DNA of 64,000 nt, from positions 1 through 64,000 of the forward strand of contig NZ_JACHJU010000006.1 in assembly GCF_014203795.1 (NCBI RefSeq), read 5' to 3'. This DNA is from Streptosporangium album (lineage in GTDB: Bacteria; Actinomycetota; Actinomycetes; Streptosporangiales; Streptosporangiaceae). Of this stretch, positions 4,094 through 13,324 are shown one piece after another. Numbering within the stretch: the stretch's first letter is position 1; each line of letters starts with the position of its first letter. The position numbers were made by a program, and so were the translations under genes. The notes beneath the pieces are model-generated. The model searched no databases. It was given only the letters and a program-made list of their open reading frames with translations, and was not told where the DNA came from.

Positions 4094-5181
4094 TCACGCC
4101 ACCTGGTGCTGCTCGGCCAGTTCGGTCAGCTTCACGGTATACAGGCCGCCGCGCTCGGCCTTCACATCGGTCACCTTGAGCTGCGTGCCGGGGGCGAGGA
4201 TGAACTCCTCCTCGCCGGTGAACGAGGAGAAACTGCGGATGCCCACGGCCCGCACGGGGAGCACCTCGAAGAGCGTCCGCTTGCCGCGGCGGCCGAGGAA
4301 CGCCTGGGCCACGTCGAGCTTCGACGTGCACGAGGACACGCCCCACCACGTCACGGTTCGGCCGAGAGGATACTGCGCTCGCAGGTCCAGCGATACCCCG
4401 CGCCACAGCGGCTCCTTGCGGGCCGGCAGACGCGACACGGCCGAGAACAAGAGTCGCAGGTACGGGACGATCCGGGTGCGGTCCGGGTTGCGCAGGGTGG
4501 CGTTGATCTGCCGGTAGAACGCCGACTCACAGGTGTAGAGGTAGAGGGCCGCGATCTCGTCGGCGGACAGGCCGCCGGCCGCGTCGCCCGCCTGCTTCTC
4601 GCCGAACTGGTACGACTGCTCCATGTGCCAGTCGAGACCCGACAGCAGCTTGGCCACCGGGGCGCCGGCCTCGCGGAAGTCCATGAGCGGGGTGTCGAAC
4701 ACGCCGATGATCGCCGGAAGTTCCAGCCCCTCGTCCTTGACGCTGGCGAGCCGTTCGAGGTAGAGCTTGTGCAACTCCATCGTGGAGGCGATGAACGCCC
4801 CCATGCGGTCGGCCGTGTCCGCGTCCGCCCCGCCGGCTTGCGCCGCGAGCTTGTTCCACCCCTTGCCGGGCAGCCAGTCGATCTCGTCGACCCCAAGCGC
4901 CTCGAGTGCCGTGTTCACGGCGGCGAAGTGGTTCCCGTCGCAGAAGATGTCGCCCTGTGCCACTTGTGCGGCGGGTGGGGCTTGATCGCCTGGAAGGTCA
5001 GTTCCCGGACGGGCACGACCATCGGGCTGCGGCCCAGGCCGATGAACGTGGCCGCGGCCGACTGCGCCTCGATGACCGGCTTCAAGAGCGGCAGCCACGG
5101 CTCGCCGCCGCTCTTGAAGAGTTCGGCGAGGGCCAGCGGGTCATTCGGGTCGGGCGGGGTGGAGGCGTTGACGTCGCTCAT
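4094..5181 (-). pseudogene. R-S-E class mono-ADP-ribosyltransferase, frameshifted near its 5' end
   Basis: The C-terminal ~90 residues form an arginine-type (ART, PF01129-like) ADP-ribosyltransferase. LWRGVSLDLR supplies the NAD-binding Arg, WWGVSSCTS the Ser motif, and FTGEEEFILAPGT the ExE catalytic turn. A ~200-residue helical region precedes it. The natural-looking start is the ATG at 5181 (MSDVNASTPPDPNDPLALAE), but that frame closes at 4915. The ART frame is open from 5098 to 4094, so a shift is needed near 4965-4972, where KPHPPHKW must join VAQGDIFCDG. The first ~75 codons resemble the N-terminus of uracil-DNA-glycosylase-like proteins (VPVRELTFQAIKPHPPHKW) up to just before the catalytic GQDPY motif, which is absent. 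I infer a deletion joining a glycosylase-like 5' end to a 5'-truncated ART. A sequencing error or recoding is possible. The macro-domain gene at 5501 is divergent. Confidence 0.7.
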
Positions 5182-5278
5182 CGTGAGCTCCCGGATCGGC
5201 GAGCCGTACCGGTGACGGCACGGGTGATTGAGGTGGGGGAATCGTGCCGTGCGAAGACCCCGGATGCGATGTCGGAGA

Positions 5279-5318
5279 ACCGGAAAGCCCACCCGTTGGA
5301 GTGGGTGGGCTTTCCGGT
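5279..5318. terminator. Perfect 16-bp hairpin between divergent genes
   Basis: ACCGGAAAGCCCACCC (5279-5294) is followed by an 8-base loop and its exact complement (5303-5318). The AAAG...CTTT edges give it the form of a bidirectional intrinsic terminator. It sits between two divergently oriented genes (starts at 5181 and 5501), where no transcript should end. It is therefore either the remains of a deleted gene's terminator or a regulatory palindrome. Confidence 0.6.
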
Positions 5319-5500
5319 CGTGAGCGTCAGTTCACTGTAGGGCCTGGTCCGCGGAAGGCTCAGGGCAGGGCAAGCCGGAGTCGGTGCGTTCGCAAGCGCG
5401 GAGATCGTTCCCAAGTCTCCAACCAAGATCTCGTTCGCCCGCGTGGCGCGGTATCTTCGTGGGCGTTGGAAACACTCCCTTCCCGCGCCCGGAGTGAGCC

Positions 5501-6175
5501 ATGACCGTCAAGCACGTGAAGCCGCTGCTCAAGGTGGTGCTGGTGGACATCAACGCGAAGGTGGTGCAGTCGTGGCGGGCGGCGTTCGCCGACACTCCCG
5601 AGGTCGAGATCCACAAGGGGTCAATCCTCGCCCGGCACGTCGATGCCTGGGTCAGCCCGACCAACTCCCGCGGGCGGATGGACGGCGGGGTCGATGCGGT
5701 CATCAAGCGGCACCTCGGGGCGGGGATCCAGCTGCGCGTCCAGCGGGCGATCCGTGATCAGTTCGAAGGGTCGCTGCCGGTGGGAAGTGCCGTGTGCGTA
5801 CCGTCCGGGGCGACCAACCCGAAGTTCCTGATCTCGACGCCGACGATGGTGCAGTCGGTGCAGAACGTGAGTGAGACGCTGAACGTGGCTCTGGCGTGCG
5901 CCGCCGCGTTCCAGGCCATCCACATGCAGAACGAGAAGGAGCCGGGCAGCATCGAGTCGGTGGCGCTGGTCGGCATGGGCATGGCGACGGGCCGGGTGCC
6001 GCCGCGGGTGTGCGCCAACTTGATGTGGACCGGCTACACCCTGTTCAACGACTACTACTTCCAGGACTACGACGACCTGCAGAAGACGATCCGCGAGCAA
6101 CTCGACGACATCGAGAGCCGCCCTGAAGAGGAGCGGGTGCGGATCAAGCCGCCCGCCGGCCAGTCCCGTGGTTGA
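5501..6175 (+). CDS. Macro-domain (ADP-ribose-binding) protein
   Basis: A 224-residue protein with a single macro domain. Such domains bind ADP-ribose and often remove it from proteins or nucleic acids. Visible signatures are the ligand loop VSPTNSRGRMDGGVDAVI near residues 46-65, corresponding to the usual VNAANxxLxGGGGVDGAI, and the phosphate-binding loop VGMGMATGRVPPRVCANLM near 155-175. The C-terminus (about 185-224) is charged and probably disordered. CCGGAG lies eight bases before the ATG. It is divergent from the ADP-ribosyltransferase at 4094-5181, so a writer and a candidate eraser or reader of ADP-ribose sit side by side, as in DarT/DarG. Neither partner is DarT- or DarG-like in detail. 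Hydrolase activity versus simple binding cannot be told from sequence. Confidence 0.85.
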   Translation: MTVKHVKPLLKVVLVDINAKVVQSWRAAFADTPEVEIHKGSILARHVDAWVSPTNSRGRMDGGVDAVIKRHLGAGIQLRVQRAIRDQFEGSLPVGSAVCVPSGATNPKFLISTPTMVQSVQNVSETLNVALACAAAFQAIHMQNEKEPGSIESVALVGMGMATGRVPPRVCANLMWTGYTLFNDYYFQDYDDLQKTIREQLDDIESRPEEERVRIKPPAGQSRG

Positions 6176-6637: not shown

Positions 6638-7066
6638 TCAGCCCGGACGTTTCTGGTTTTCGATGTACTCCTTGATGATCGATAGGGGTGCGCCGCCGCA
6701 GGAGGCGGCGAAGTACGACGGCGACCAGAAATGCCCGCCCCACAGATACTTACGGATATGTGCCGGATACTCCTTGCTGAGTAGCCGGGCAGACACGCCC
6801 TTGAGGCTGTTTACCAGCGTCGAGAGGGCGACTTTGGGTGGGTGGTGCACGAGCAGGTGCACGTGATCTTCCTCGCCGTTGAACTCGACCAGCTCCGCCC
6901 CGAAACTGTCGCACACCTCGATCATGATGTCTTCGCAGCGACGCAGAATCTCGTCGGTGAACACACCTCGCCGATACTTTGGGGTGAAGACCAAGTGGGC
7001 GTGCAGGTTGTGGACCACGGCACGGCCTCGGCGGATGTCGGGATTCGGTCCCCATCTCGGTGACAT
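6638..7066 (-). CDS. tnpA: IS200/IS605 Y1 transposase TnpA
   Basis: A 142-residue HUH-superfamily transposase that cuts and rejoins single-stranded element ends at hairpins. The HUH motif is HVH within EEDHVHLLVHHPP near residue 68, and the catalytic tyrosine is in IIKEYIENQ near the C-terminus. Length is typical (130-155). The N-terminus HNLHAHLVFTPKYRRGVFT is the usual family opening. It is divergent from tnpB, with 15 bp between the start codons, so the two promoters must overlap or reach into the opposite gene. Confidence 0.93.
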   Translation of the reverse strand: MSPRWGPNPDIRRGRAVVHNLHAHLVFTPKYRRGVFTDEILRRCEDIMIEVCDSFGAELVEFNGEEDHVHLLVHHPPKVALSTLVNSLKGVSARLLSKEYPAHIRKYLWGGHFWSPSYFAASCGGAPLSIIKEYIENQKRPG

Positions 7067-7081
7067 GGACCTAATGCTAGA

Positions 7082-8233
7082 GTGTTCGATATGAAGCTGG
7101 TGGTGCGGGTCAAGCTCCTGCCGACGCCTGAGCAGGCGGCGGCGCTGGAGGCGACTCTACGCGCGGTCAACGACGCGGCCACCTGGGTCTCGACGCTCGC
7201 CCACGACCAGCGGGTATTCCGCGATTACGACCTGCGCAAGCACGCCTACGGGCAGATCAAGGACAGGTACGGGCTGGCGGCTCAGGCCGCGCAGCATGTC
7301 ATCAAGAAGGTCACCGACGCCTACGCCACGCTGCACGCCAATCTCCGCAACGGCAATGTGGGCAAGCCCGGCTCCGCGCGGCGCGAGCGGGTCCAGGCCA
7401 AGCCGATCGTCTTTCGCCCCAGCGCGGCCCAGCCGTTCGACGACCGCTGTCTGTCCTGGCAGATGGACGCGCGGACGGTGTCGATCTGGACCACCTGGGG
7501 GCGAATGAAGAGCGTGGCGTTCACCGCCTCGGCCGATCAGCTCAAGACGTTGGCCGCCTACCGCAAGGGCGAATCGGACCTCGTATACCGCGATGGCATG
7601 TGGTTCCTCATCGCTACCTGCGACCTGCCGGATGTGCCGGTCACCGACCCGGACGGGTTCCTCGGCGTGGATCTGGGCATCGCCGACATCGCCACCACCG
7701 ACGACGGCACTCATCACTCGGGTAAAGGGCTGAACGCGGTCCGCCACCGCGACCGGGAACTGCGTCGCCGATTGCAGCGTAAGAACACCAAATCCGCGAA
7801 ACGGCTGCTGAAGAAACGCCGCCGCAAAGAAGCGCGTTTCGCCGCCGACACCAACCACACCATTGCCAAACGCATCGTGACCGAGGCGACACGCACCGGG
7901 CAAGGTATCGCCCTGGAAGATCTCCAGGGCATCCGCGACCGGGTACGGCTCCGTAAGCCCCAGCGGGTCACGCTGCATTCGTGGAGCTTCCACCGGCTCG
8001 GCCGGTTCATCGCCTACAAGGCGGCCCGTGCCGGTGTCGCTCTGGTCTACGTGGACCCGGCCTACACCTCGCAAGGCTGCTCGGCCTGCGGGCACGTGGA
8101 CAAGAAGAACCGGCCCGACCAGGAAACCTTTCTCTGTACGTCGTGCGGCTTCGCTGAGCACGCCGACGTCAACGCAGCTCGTAACATCGCCGCACGCGGT
8201 GTCACAAGCTGGGCAGTGAGTCACGCTGCCTGA
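7082..8233 (+). CDS. tnpB: TnpB, RNA-guided transposon nuclease (IS605 OrfB)
   Basis: A 383-residue TnpB, the ancestor-type relative of Cas12. It uses an RNA made from the element's right end to cut DNA next to a short motif, which helps the element persist. The RuvC-like residues are intact: Asp in FLGVDLGIADIA (~residue 198), Glu in GIALEDLQGI (~280) and Asp in HADVNAARN (~362). The zinc ribbon CSACG...CTSCG lies between the last two. An N-terminal helix-turn-helix-like region with LLPTPEQAAALEATL precedes. Length and order match full-size TnpB. Nothing suggests decay. Confidence 0.93.
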   Translation: MFDMKLVVRVKLLPTPEQAAALEATLRAVNDAATWVSTLAHDQRVFRDYDLRKHAYGQIKDRYGLAAQAAQHVIKKVTDAYATLHANLRNGNVGKPGSARRERVQAKPIVFRPSAAQPFDDRCLSWQMDARTVSIWTTWGRMKSVAFTASADQLKTLAAYRKGESDLVYRDGMWFLIATCDLPDVPVTDPDGFLGVDLGIADIATTDDGTHHSGKGLNAVRHRDRELRRRLQRKNTKSAKRLLKKRRRKEARFAADTNHTIAKRIVTEATRTGQGIALEDLQGIRDRVRLRKPQRVTLHSWSFHRLGRFIAYKAARAGVALVYVDPAYTSQGCSACGHVDKKNRPDQETFLCTSCGFAEHADVNAARNIAARGVTSWAVSHAA

Positions 8234-8721: not shown

Positions 8722-10393
8722 TCAGGCTGCCAGGCCGAGATCGCAGGCGAGTCGGGTCAGGTGCGAGATGCGGGTACGGCCGCGTGTGGTGCCGGTCCAC
8801 CAGGCATCCAGGCGGATGAGGTTGATCGCGGTGGCGGTGAAGACGTGCCCAAGTGCGGTCTTGGGCAGGCCGTGGTAACGAGTCCGACGGATCTGGGTGG
8901 CCCGGACAGCTTGGGAGATCGTTCCTTCCACCCCTGCCCGGACGGCATAGCGGTCCTTCCATTCCTGGGTCTGCTGGTCGTATCGGCGCTGCTCCAGCAC
9001 CTGTTGCAGAGGCTGGGGTAACAGGGTCAGGGTGCGGCCGTACTTGCCGTGGGCAGCGCGTGTGCATGCCTGGCGTACCGGGCATGGACCGCAGTCGTCG
9101 TTGGAAAAACGGATCTGGGTGATCGGGGTTCCGTTGGATTTGCGCTGATCAGACCAGGAGACACTGACCGCGCCACGCGGGCAGGTGACCCGATGACGGT
9201 CCCAATCGATGGCGAAGTCCCCCTGCGTCAGCCCGGCCTGGGCCTGCCCCGGTTCGGTGGTGTCGATGCCGACCGGCCCGAGCAGGTCGATCCCGTAGGC
9301 GCTGTGGGCCGAAACGATGAGCGCGGCACTGGTGTATCCGGCATCGACCGCGTGTTCGCCGGGTCGTGGCCCGCGTCGCTCCAGTGCGGCATGGACCGGT
9401 GCGGTCAGCTCGATATCGCCGGTGCAGGCGTTGGTCGTGGCCACGTTGGTGATCAGATGTGGGGCGTCCTCGTCACAGGTCTCGCTCAGGTGGACCTTGT
9501 AGCCGCACCAGCCCGAGCCGCGTTTGACGCCGTAATGCGCCTGTGGATCGTAGGGCGAGGCCAGGCGGGTTCTGCCCGGCGGGAGATCTTTCGCCTCCCG
9601 CCGGCGCACCCCCTTCTCGTCGCGGTGATACTGCTGCACCCAGGCCACGCGCAGCACTTGAACCGCCGGGATCTGCCGCAACCAGGCCGGGGCGCCGGGC
9701 GCATAGACCGCCTCCAGCAGGGCGAACCCATCGGTTTCGACCCTTAGAGCCCACCGGGTCCGGGCATCTTCCCCCTTGGGGAACCGATAGGCGTCCACCC
9801 GCGCCCCATGCCGTTCGATCCACTCGGCCGAGACCACCTCGGCCAGCCAGCCAGCCGGGCGCCGCGGCGGCCAACGCCTCCAGCGCACAACGCAGCGTCT
9901 CGCCGACGAACTCCATCCGGTTCAGCGTCCGCACGGCCGCCAGCACATGGGTGGAATCGGTGCGCTGACGGCCACCGGCGCGCAACAACCCCAGTTGCGA
10001 ACACCGCTCCAGCAGCGTATCCAGCACCTTCTGCTCGATCCCGCGCGCGATGATGCGGTCGCGAAACTCACTCAGCACCGAGAAGTCGAATCCCGGATCT
10101 GTCAGCTCCAGGGCCAAGCCGTACTTCCAGTCGATCCGCCCGCGCACCGCGTCGGCGGCTTGCCGATCGCTCAGCCCTTCGGCGAACTGCAGTACCGACA
10201 CCGGCGCCGGTATCCCGGGAGACAGCCCAGGTCCGCCCCGCGCAGGGAACGCCTCGGCGAACTGCTCGTCTTCGAAGAGCGGACCGAGTTCATCACGGAC
10301 CCGCATCGCCAGACATCCCTTGGGGAAAGCCGCCCATGCTACCCGGACGGTCGATTCCGGCACCTCACCAGCGGGACGGGGACGCAGAGACAT
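8722..10393 (-). pseudogene. IS1182-family DDE transposase, frameshifted
   Basis: Start ATG at 10393 with GGAGG seven bases upstream (MSLRPRPAGEVPE). The N-terminal part has the DUF772-type segment RQAADAVRGRIDWKYGLALE and RQRTDSTHVLAAVR. The C-terminal part supplies HYGVKRGSGWCGYKVHLSE, HAVDAGYTSAAL, a CGPCPVRQACTRA cysteine region and RAGVEGTISQAVR. The two halves lie in different frames and meet near 9855. There the coding strand reads three tandem TGGC units. Removing one unit (4 nt) joins APGWLA to EVVSAEW in frame. The most likely history is slipped-strand expansion that inactivated the transposase. Programmed frameshifting is less likely, as this family normally uses one frame. Confidence 0.85.
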
Positions 10394-10467
10394 GGCAGAA
10401 CCTCCTCCACACACTGTCTGCAAGAGGGTTCCTCCACCGTGCCACGTCAAACGATGATCACCACTCG

Positions 10468-10485
10468 AATCGGCCAACAGAGTCC
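10468..10485 (-). repeat. Right terminal inverted repeat of the IS1182-like element
   Basis: Inverted copy of the 18-bp end at 8700-8717, followed by TGAA (10486-10489), the target duplication. Confidence 0.9.
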
Positions 10486-11884: not shown

Positions 11885-13324
11885 ATGCGGTTGAGCTCAC
11901 GGCTCGGCAGACTGGACCGGCGGCTGTTCGCCATGGTGGCGGGCGCGAAGCTTCCCGGCCTCGAGCGTCTCGTCCCCGTCCTGTCGCGTTCCGCCGACAA
12001 CTCGCTGCTGTGGGCCGGTCTCGCCGGGGCGCTGGCGGTCAGCGGGCGGCGGCCGCTGCGCCGCGCCGCGACCCGCGGGCTGCTCGCGGTCAGCCTGGCC
12101 AGTCCCCTGGTGAATCTGGTCGGCAAGCAGGCCTTCGGCCGGACCCGCCCGTCACTGGACGGCCTGCCCCTGAGAAGAATGATCAAGATGCCCGCGTCGG
12201 CGTCGTTCCCCTCCGGTCATTCGGCCTCGGCCGCCGCGTTCGCCACCGCCGTGGCCGTCGAGGCGCCCGCCGTGGTCGCGGCCCCCGTCGCACTGCTCGC
12301 GGCGGCCGTCTGCTTCTCCCGCGTCTACACCGGCGTGCACTACCCGGGAGACGTCCTGGCGGGGGCAGCGATCGGCGTCGCTACCGGGCTGCTCACCCGG
12401 CGGCTCTGGCCGGAGGCCGTGACGGGCGCGCCGCGGGTGGTCACCGCGCCGCCGGTGCCCGGGCACGACCCCGACGGCCAGGGCGTGGTCGCCGTGATCA
12501 ACCCCTCTGCGGGAGGTGCCCCGGCCGTGGTCGCCGCGGTGCGGTCCTGGCTGCCCAAGGCCGAGGTGGTCGAGGTGGACGGACCGGACGTGGCCCGGGT
12601 GATGGACGAGGCCGCAGCCCGTGCCCGGGTGCTCGCGGTCGCCGGAGGCGACGGCACGGCCGGTTGCGGGGCGCAGGCCGCGCTGCGATACCGCAAACCC
12701 CTGATGATCATCCCGGCGGGGACGCTGGACCACTTCGCGGCCGCCCTGGGCCTACGCGGACCCGAGGACGCGATGGCCGCCTACCGTTCGGGCGGGGTGG
12801 TCGCGGTGGACGTGGGGGAGGTGGCCGGCCGGATCTTCCTCAACAACGCCGGCCTCGGCGTCTATCCGCAGATCGTCGACCGGCGTGAGTCCGTCGAGCA
12901 GCGCATCGGCAAGTGGCCGGCGCTGTTGTGGGCACTGGGCCGCGTGCTGCGCACCGCCGAGCCCGAGGAGGTGGTCGTCGACGGCGTGCCCCAGCGGATA
13001 TGGCTGCTGTTCGTCGGCAACTGCCGCTACGACTCGCGCGGAGCCGCCCCACGCCTGCGGCGGAGACTGGAGGACGGATTGCTGGACGTCCGGCTGCTGA
13101 CCGCCACCTCCCGGCTGCCCCGGCTGCGCGCCCTCACCAGCGTGTTGCTGGGCGGGATCGGCCTGTCCCGGCACTACCAGCAGTGGCAGGCCGACACGCT
13201 GAGACTCTCCTCGCCCTCCGGCACGGTACGGCTGGCCCGCGACGGTGAGACGTTCACCGTGCCCGGGGACGTGGAGTTCACCAAGCGGCCCCGCTCCCTG
13301 CTCGTGATCCGCCCGGCGGGTTAG
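11885..13324 (+). CDS. PAP2 phosphatase fused to a diacylglycerol-kinase-like lipid kinase
   Basis: A 479-residue two-domain protein. The N-terminal ~190 residues are a membrane PAP2 phosphatase with all three motifs: KQAFGRTRP, FPSGHSAS and SRVYTGVHYPGD, with hydrophobic segments around each. From about residue 200 a DAGK catalytic domain follows, with VVAVINPSAGG, the nucleotide loop LAVAGGDGTAGCGAQ, and IIPAGTLDHFA where kinases usually have GTxNDFA. Both domains act on lipid phosphates, so the fusion could recycle isoprenoid or glycerolipid phosphates at the membrane; the substrate is unknown. AGGGG lies nine bases before the ATG. Confidence 0.9.
   Translation: MRLSSRLGRLDRRLFAMVAGAKLPGLERLVPVLSRSADNSLLWAGLAGALAVSGRRPLRRAATRGLLAVSLASPLVNLVGKQAFGRTRPSLDGLPLRRMIKMPASASFPSGHSASAAAFATAVAVEAPAVVAAPVALLAAAVCFSRVYTGVHYPGDVLAGAAIGVATGLLTRRLWPEAVTGAPRVVTAPPVPGHDPDGQGVVAVINPSAGGAPAVVAAVRSWLPKAEVVEVDGPDVARVMDEAAARARVLAVAGGDGTAGCGAQAALRYRKPLMIIPAGTLDHFAAALGLRGPEDAMAAYRSGGVVAVDVGEVAGRIFLNNAGLGVYPQIVDRRESVEQRIGKWPALLWALGRVLRTAEPEEVVVDGVPQRIWLLFVGNCRYDSRGAAPRLRRRLEDGLLDVRLLTATSRLPRLRALTSVLLGGIGLSRHYQQWQADTLRLSSPSGTVRLARDGETFTVPGDVEFTKRPRSLLVIRPAG

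Follow-up and report, generated by a model that had tools for sequence, protein, structure and literature searches.

Judged from its sequences, the head-to-head gene pair found near the start of the Streptosporangium album window, i.e., a macro-domain gene and a broken ADP-ribosyltransferase (ART) gene, is a two-gene unit, sometimes one gene, common to many soil actinobacteria, and its ART is carried by the same polypeptide as a predicted uracil-DNA-glycosylase (UDG) domain. We estimate at an even chance that the intact system is a DNA-damage-inducible, DNA-directed and reversible ADP-ribosylation module. The UDG-ART-macro architecture has no model in Pfam, NCBIfam, PADLOC or PHROGs, and we found no UDG-ART fusion in the open papers searched; a mention in a subscription journal is possible. 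The window, i.e., the whole 64,000-nucleotide stretch analysed here, corresponds to positions 1-64000 of NZ_JACHJU010000006.1, in an actinobacterial genome of 9.02 Mb (14 contigs) that contains one copy each of the ART and macro genes. An earlier note, made from the letters of this DNA, had described a minus-strand ART with Arg, Ser and ExE motifs and a plus-strand macro domain, with starts 320 bp apart. Both genes were recovered as described, and their starts lie at 5181 and 5501. The features of the locus are:

4094..4959, minus strand: C-terminal piece of the broken UDG-ART gene (PF01129; conserved invariant columns)
4960..5181, minus strand: N-terminal piece of the broken UDG-ART gene, coding for 74 aa with which the UDG domain begins (homology to residues 1-74 of intact copies)
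4959..4960, minus strand: deletion junction, 520 bp being absent compared with the nearest relative, L003
4394..4408, minus strand: ART Arg motif LWRGV (motif position and alignment of intact homologues)
4322..4336, minus strand: ART Ser motif SSCTS (motif position and alignment of intact homologues)
4202..4213, minus strand: ART ExE motif EEEF (motif position and alignment of intact homologues)
5501..6175, plus strand: intact macro-domain gene, 224 aa (PF01661; phrog_2613, E=1.6e-40; predicted model)
5452..5457, plus strand: -10 box TATCTT, 43 nt 5' of the macro start codon, at the site of the PafBC/RecA-NDp -10 in relatives
5436..5443, plus strand: degenerate -35-like half CGCCCGCG, with 4 mismatches to TGTCRGTG
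5279..5318, no strand: inverted repeat, arms of 16 bp, in the region that separates the ART and macro genes (seen in the sequence)

The C-terminal piece of the broken gene holds the tail of the UDG domain (AQGDIFCDGNHF...), a linker and the whole R-S-ExE ADP-ribosyltransferase domain, and the N-terminal piece is out of frame with it. Shorter versions of the inverted repeat occur in L003, in L014 and upstream of an orphan ART in L083, and it is absent elsewhere. The flanks, which had been described as insertion sequence (IS) remnants, are only partly so. A frameshifted IS, whose DDE transposase is divided between two overlapping frames (a DUF772 part and a DDE_Tnp_1_6 part), is indeed present at 8722-10477, but the IS200/IS605-type element adjoining the macro gene (6638-8233), in which a Y1 transposase (tnpA, minus strand) diverges from a TnpB with a Cas12f-like TNB domain (plus strand), looks intact. 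The other side carries an APH-type phosphotransferase gene just downstream of the ART gene, truncated to the C-terminal part of PF01636 (3551-4051), and a gene that is NRPS-like as judged from its open reading frame. Elsewhere in the window, a PAP2 phosphatase fused to a diacylglycerol-kinase/YegS-like domain (11885-13324) lies beside a PPK2 polyphosphate kinase gene.

Scanning the genomes of 84,980 species with the macro protein gave 182 relatives, of which the closest 80, all actinobacterial, were kept as loci. Among these, the ART adjoins the macro gene in 77, and in the other three the macro gene lies 194-328 bp from a contig end. Because such an end would cut off a divergent ART, the linkage holds in 77 of 77 testable loci. 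The paired genes are divergent in 65 loci, as in the window, and run in the same direction, macro first, in 12. Profile searches found macro and ART in the identical 13 genomes among 151 of the window's family, and in the identical 3 among 396 of the phylum. By chance, the 13/151 co-occurrence would have a probability of around 10^-18 if the genes were independent, a figure to be read knowing that related genomes are not independent draws. Hence, the 77 testable loci and the identical genome sets rule out chance neighbours. The two genes are even found as one: macro-UDG-ART forms a single polypeptide in several Streptomyces; one open frame spans all three domains in L059, L079 and L080; frames of 850 and 923 aa contain both macro and UDG-ART in G502 and G332; and WP_251091506.1 is an annotated 801-aa macro-UDG-ART fusion on a Streptomyces plasmid. 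The search for recurrent neighbourhood that the earlier note had called for thus came out in its favour, natural fusions included. The gene tree implies a single change of arrangement and about two origins of the fusion. Compared with the families, this tree requires 8 changes against a minimum of 5; being mostly family-coherent, it rules out rampant horizontal transfer. No other neighbour is conserved, the next commonest family being present in 8 of these closest 80 loci. As only ART and macro are conserved in the neighbourhood, a separate lost third gene is ruled out. The third component whose loss had been suspected corresponds to the UDG-like domain of this same protein.

PF01129 (NAD:arginine ADP-ribosyltransferase) recognises the ART reading frame at E=2.6e-10 and 40.4 bits, against a cut-off of 22.3, and all 75 intact homologues share R440, S462, E503 and E505. 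The Arg, Ser-x-Ser/Thr and ExE residues, together with the ART fold, place it in the R-S-ExE class. Modelling, proposed earlier as a check, gave this fold for the ART part of an intact homologue (AF2 model; ART2.2 Z 17.9, Tre1 Z 17.7). The enzyme is, as had been argued, PF01129-like rather than a DarT: no DarT model of Pfam, NCBIfam or PADLOC matched it, only PF01129 and, weakly, PF03496, and a DarT or PADLOC-listed system was discarded for lack of any match. The macro protein matches PF01661 above its cut-off (E=6.3e-11, 42.7 bits, cut-off 22) and has no PADLOC match. Its model (pLDDT 86) matches macrodomain folds at Z 13-17, and its relatives conserve Asn55 and the GGVD loop, Asp65 included, without or almost without exception. 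The best match is yeast YMR087W (1njr), an ADP-ribose-1''-monophosphatase (Z 16.6, 188 residues aligned); Escherichia coli YmdB scores Z around 15 and Mtb DarG Z 13.3, several other macrodomains scoring higher than the latter.

Upstream of the macro gene, the motif TGTCRGTG-N8-TANNNT is exact in 60 of the closest 80 loci (of 182) and present with at most two mismatches in 72. It corresponds to RecA-NDp, the promoter motif of the PafBC damage regulon, whose consensus reportedly comes from Gamulin et al. It mostly ends 38-44 nt 5' of the ATG, the sequence further upstream being near random, and shuffled intergenic DNA contains no exact match. On the ART side of the 65 divergent loci, the motif is exact in 9 and within one mismatch in 20, and in the fused copies L059, L079, L080 and L088 one motif stands ahead of the whole macro-UDG-ART gene. 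In a control on one whole 10.1-Mb genome, a stricter form gave 15 matches and the reversed pattern none, and it precedes recA, ung, SWIM-finger and WGR genes as well as this macro gene. Two other module-bearing genomes contain no match to this stricter A-form, and their macro genes have the G-form or no clear copy. LexA boxes in the intergenic regions were not above shuffles and were discarded. Present in most relatives, the RecA-NDp-type promoter is degenerate in the window, with its four mismatches in the -35 half, and L003 has the same degenerate half although its ART is intact. As a side observation, one genome with an intact module also encodes a WGR-domain protein (L099:1-1437) preceded by an exact PafBC-type promoter; WGR domains also occur in PARPs, and this may be another ADP-ribose-linked damage gene. 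The role of PafBC in the actinobacterial damage response has been described (PMC6789036, PMC11804915), and a DNA-damage promoter shifts the likely role of the pair from a plain toxin-antitoxin system towards a damage-response module.

Intact UDG-ART homologues are of around 538 aa, and their N-terminal 280 residues constitute a family-1 UDG domain. Its alignment profile matches solved UDGs (E=2.6e-14), the best being 5x3g, presumably BdiUNG of Bradyrhizobium. The NCBIfam ung models match it at 4.6e-21, below those models' own cut-offs, and the Pfam search of UDG-ART did not report the Pfam UDG model. In the AF2 model, the UDG half has a low pLDDT and only the ART part is confident. The pocket residues Gln84, Tyr87, Asn168 and His246 (L010 numbering, as below) are invariant in 75 of 75 intact copies, and dN/dS, below 1 in every domain of the module, is low here (0.08-0.32 over nine pairs). 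This invariance and these low ratios argue that the pocket is still in use. On the other hand, the catalytic Asp is replaced by Asn85 in all 75 copies, Phe77 by Met98 and the intercalating Leu191 by Ala250. From general knowledge of Ung, D64N-type changes nearly abolish activity, and such substitutions should cripple base excision. Family-1 UDGs have GQDPY with the catalytic Asp as motif A and HPSPLS as motif B (PMC10359453), while the 75 copies carry GQNPYP and H[PACS]NPAA. These observations bear on the possibility that the protein is a base-excision repair enzyme, in which the UDG would excise uracil or another base, the ART would modify the abasic site or nearby DNA ends, and the macro protein would clear the modification later. 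The conserved pocket and an ung gene under the same promoter motif in a module-bearing genome are consistent with it; given the altered catalytic positions, we consider it unlikely. With Asn in every copy, the UDG-like domain looks more like a reader of DNA than a glycosylase of repair, and it probably binds a base or lesion.

In the reading that we prefer, of a damage-inducible and DNA-directed module, PafBC, activated by single-stranded DNA, would induce the macro gene. The UDG-like domain would dock on uracil, on another modified base or on an abasic site, thereby delivering the R-S-ExE ART to this DNA. There, the enzyme would transfer ADP-ribose from NAD to a DNA-bound protein (ExE enzymes usually modify arginine) or to DNA itself, and the macro protein would take the mark off again. 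The architecture, linkage, fusion, invariant active sites and damage-type promoter can be read in the sequences themselves; against this reading stand the low-confidence model of the UDG half, the silence of the Pfam UDG model, and the loss of the promoter in the window and in L003. Its weakest step is the pairing of an arginine-type ART with macrodomain chemistry. Macrodomains are not known to cleave the arginine-ADP-ribose linkage, and since an ExE ART is expected to act on arginine, the chemistries of writer and eraser do not obviously match. The macro protein could then be an ADP-ribose reader or a processor of free ADP-ribose derivatives rather than the eraser of the ART product; indeed, its closest fold being the yeast ADP-ribose-1''-phosphatase, it might process a small molecule. 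This we regard as improbable, considering its strict linkage and fusion to the ART, its invariant N55 and GGVD loop with D65, and the precedent of SCO6735, a Streptomyces macrodomain protein with a RecA-NDp promoter, UV-inducible (PMC5087735), that removes thymidine-linked ADP-ribose (PMC9411070, PMC5087735).

In the window, the writer has been destroyed by deletion, the macro gene is intact and the damage promoter has apparently decayed. The earlier note had located a frameshift at 4950-5000. The frame is indeed shifted, but the lesion is not a local one: relative to L003, 520 bp are absent at a junction with a 2-bp GG microhomology (4959/4960), which removes the UDG core, including the GQNPYP motif. 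This rules out a simple frameshift or sequencing error as the main lesion; the 520-bp loss itself may be an assembly error. As had been anticipated, this host keeps only the macro half, with an intact macro reading frame and its single-copy ART gene broken. The deletion looks recent, because none of the 95 covered invariant columns is violated in the ART piece and its three relatives assigned to this genus are intact. For the macro gene, dN/dS is 0.53 between the window and L003 and 0.59 for L003-L010, compared with 0.05-0.36 in the eight other pairs, so that selection on the module may have been relaxed in the window/L003 lineage. Another decayed copy is the orphan UDG-ART of L083 (8856-10583; genome G062), whose genome contains an intact pair as well; the orphan has no macro gene beside it and violates 21 of 211 invariant columns, while intact copies violate at most 4.

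Such losses would be predicted where an active ART is costly in the absence of its partner, and they lead to the main rival, a toxin-antitoxin or abortive anti-phage module, in which UDG-ART would be a toxin sensing uracil or a modified base of phage DNA, and the macro protein an antitoxin reversing its action like DarG. It would account for the decayed orphan and for the window, where the ART is broken and the macro kept, as well as for the patchy distribution (13/151 and 3/396 genomes); an interbacterial toxin, Tre1, is among the closest ART folds, and UDG-superfamily proteins can act in phage defence, as does Brig1 (PMC11078745). It accounts less well for the damage promoter before the macro gene and the single-protein fusions, both unusual for a plain pair, and for the absent defence or phage context: there is no PADLOC match, no defence gene recurs in the 80 loci, and viral contigs contain no confirmed relative. 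The gene tree, which mostly follows families, also speaks against it. All in all, we consider this rival possible and distinctly less probable than the damage module. A phage or prophage origin was discarded on the same viral contigs, and the named-phage collection contains only distant macro proteins (around 30-36% identity) or plain UDGs.

In eukaryotes, PARP biology is characterised by reversible ADP-ribosylation at DNA lesions, and it may be asked whether a comparable physiological response to damage exists in bacteria. A PARP1-like logic may operate in Actinobacteria, in which a glycosylase-derived reader, no longer able to excise bases, brings an ART to DNA that contains uracil, is abasic or is modified, its macrodomain partner erases the mark, and PafBC, as sensor of single-stranded DNA, switches the system on; we hold this more specific proposal tentatively, at somewhat less than an even chance. 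A lesion-binding fold, an ART and a macrodomain under an actinobacterial damage promoter make the PARP-like question directly testable in Streptomyces. Should the module prove to act in defence or as a toxin-antitoxin system, this writer/eraser pair would differ from DarTG and carry a nucleobase sensor of its own.

Among known systems, we file the module as a variant of the reversible ADP-ribosylation pairs, and not as a member of DarTG. In DarTG, the toxin acts on thymidine or guanosine of single-stranded DNA and DarG reverses the modification. Both systems associate an ADP-ribosyltransferase with a macrodomain partner and probably share a link to DNA; they differ by the PF01129 R-S-ExE ART found here in place of DarT, the additional UDG domain, the PafBC/RecA-NDp promoter, the natural single-chain fusions, and a macro protein outside the PADLOC models. 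The fold and catalytic residues of this ART are common to the R-S-ExE mono-ARTs of the Tre1 and ART2.2/Vis type. Tre1 is secreted as an effector and has an ARH for immunity protein, whereas the ART analysed here is partnered by a macro protein and has a UDG as its N-terminal domain. With family-1 UDGs such as 5x3g, UDG-ART shares the GQxPYP motif, the LLLN pocket, the catalytic His, the WG motif and the C-terminal HF..VN..L, and it departs from them by the Asp to Asn, Phe to Met and Leu to Ala changes and by the fused ART. Brig1, an anti-phage DNA glycosylase that resembles family-4 UDGs and excises glucosyl-hmC (PMC11078745), has in common a UDG-superfamily domain and a possible defence role, but no fusion to an ART is described for it. 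Finally, SCO6735 is an actinobacterial macrodomain with the promoter type seen before the macro gene in relatives. It lies beside an amino-acid permease gene, is present in almost all Streptomyces (PMC9411070) and is not described with an ART, whereas the macro gene analysed here is patchy and always paired.
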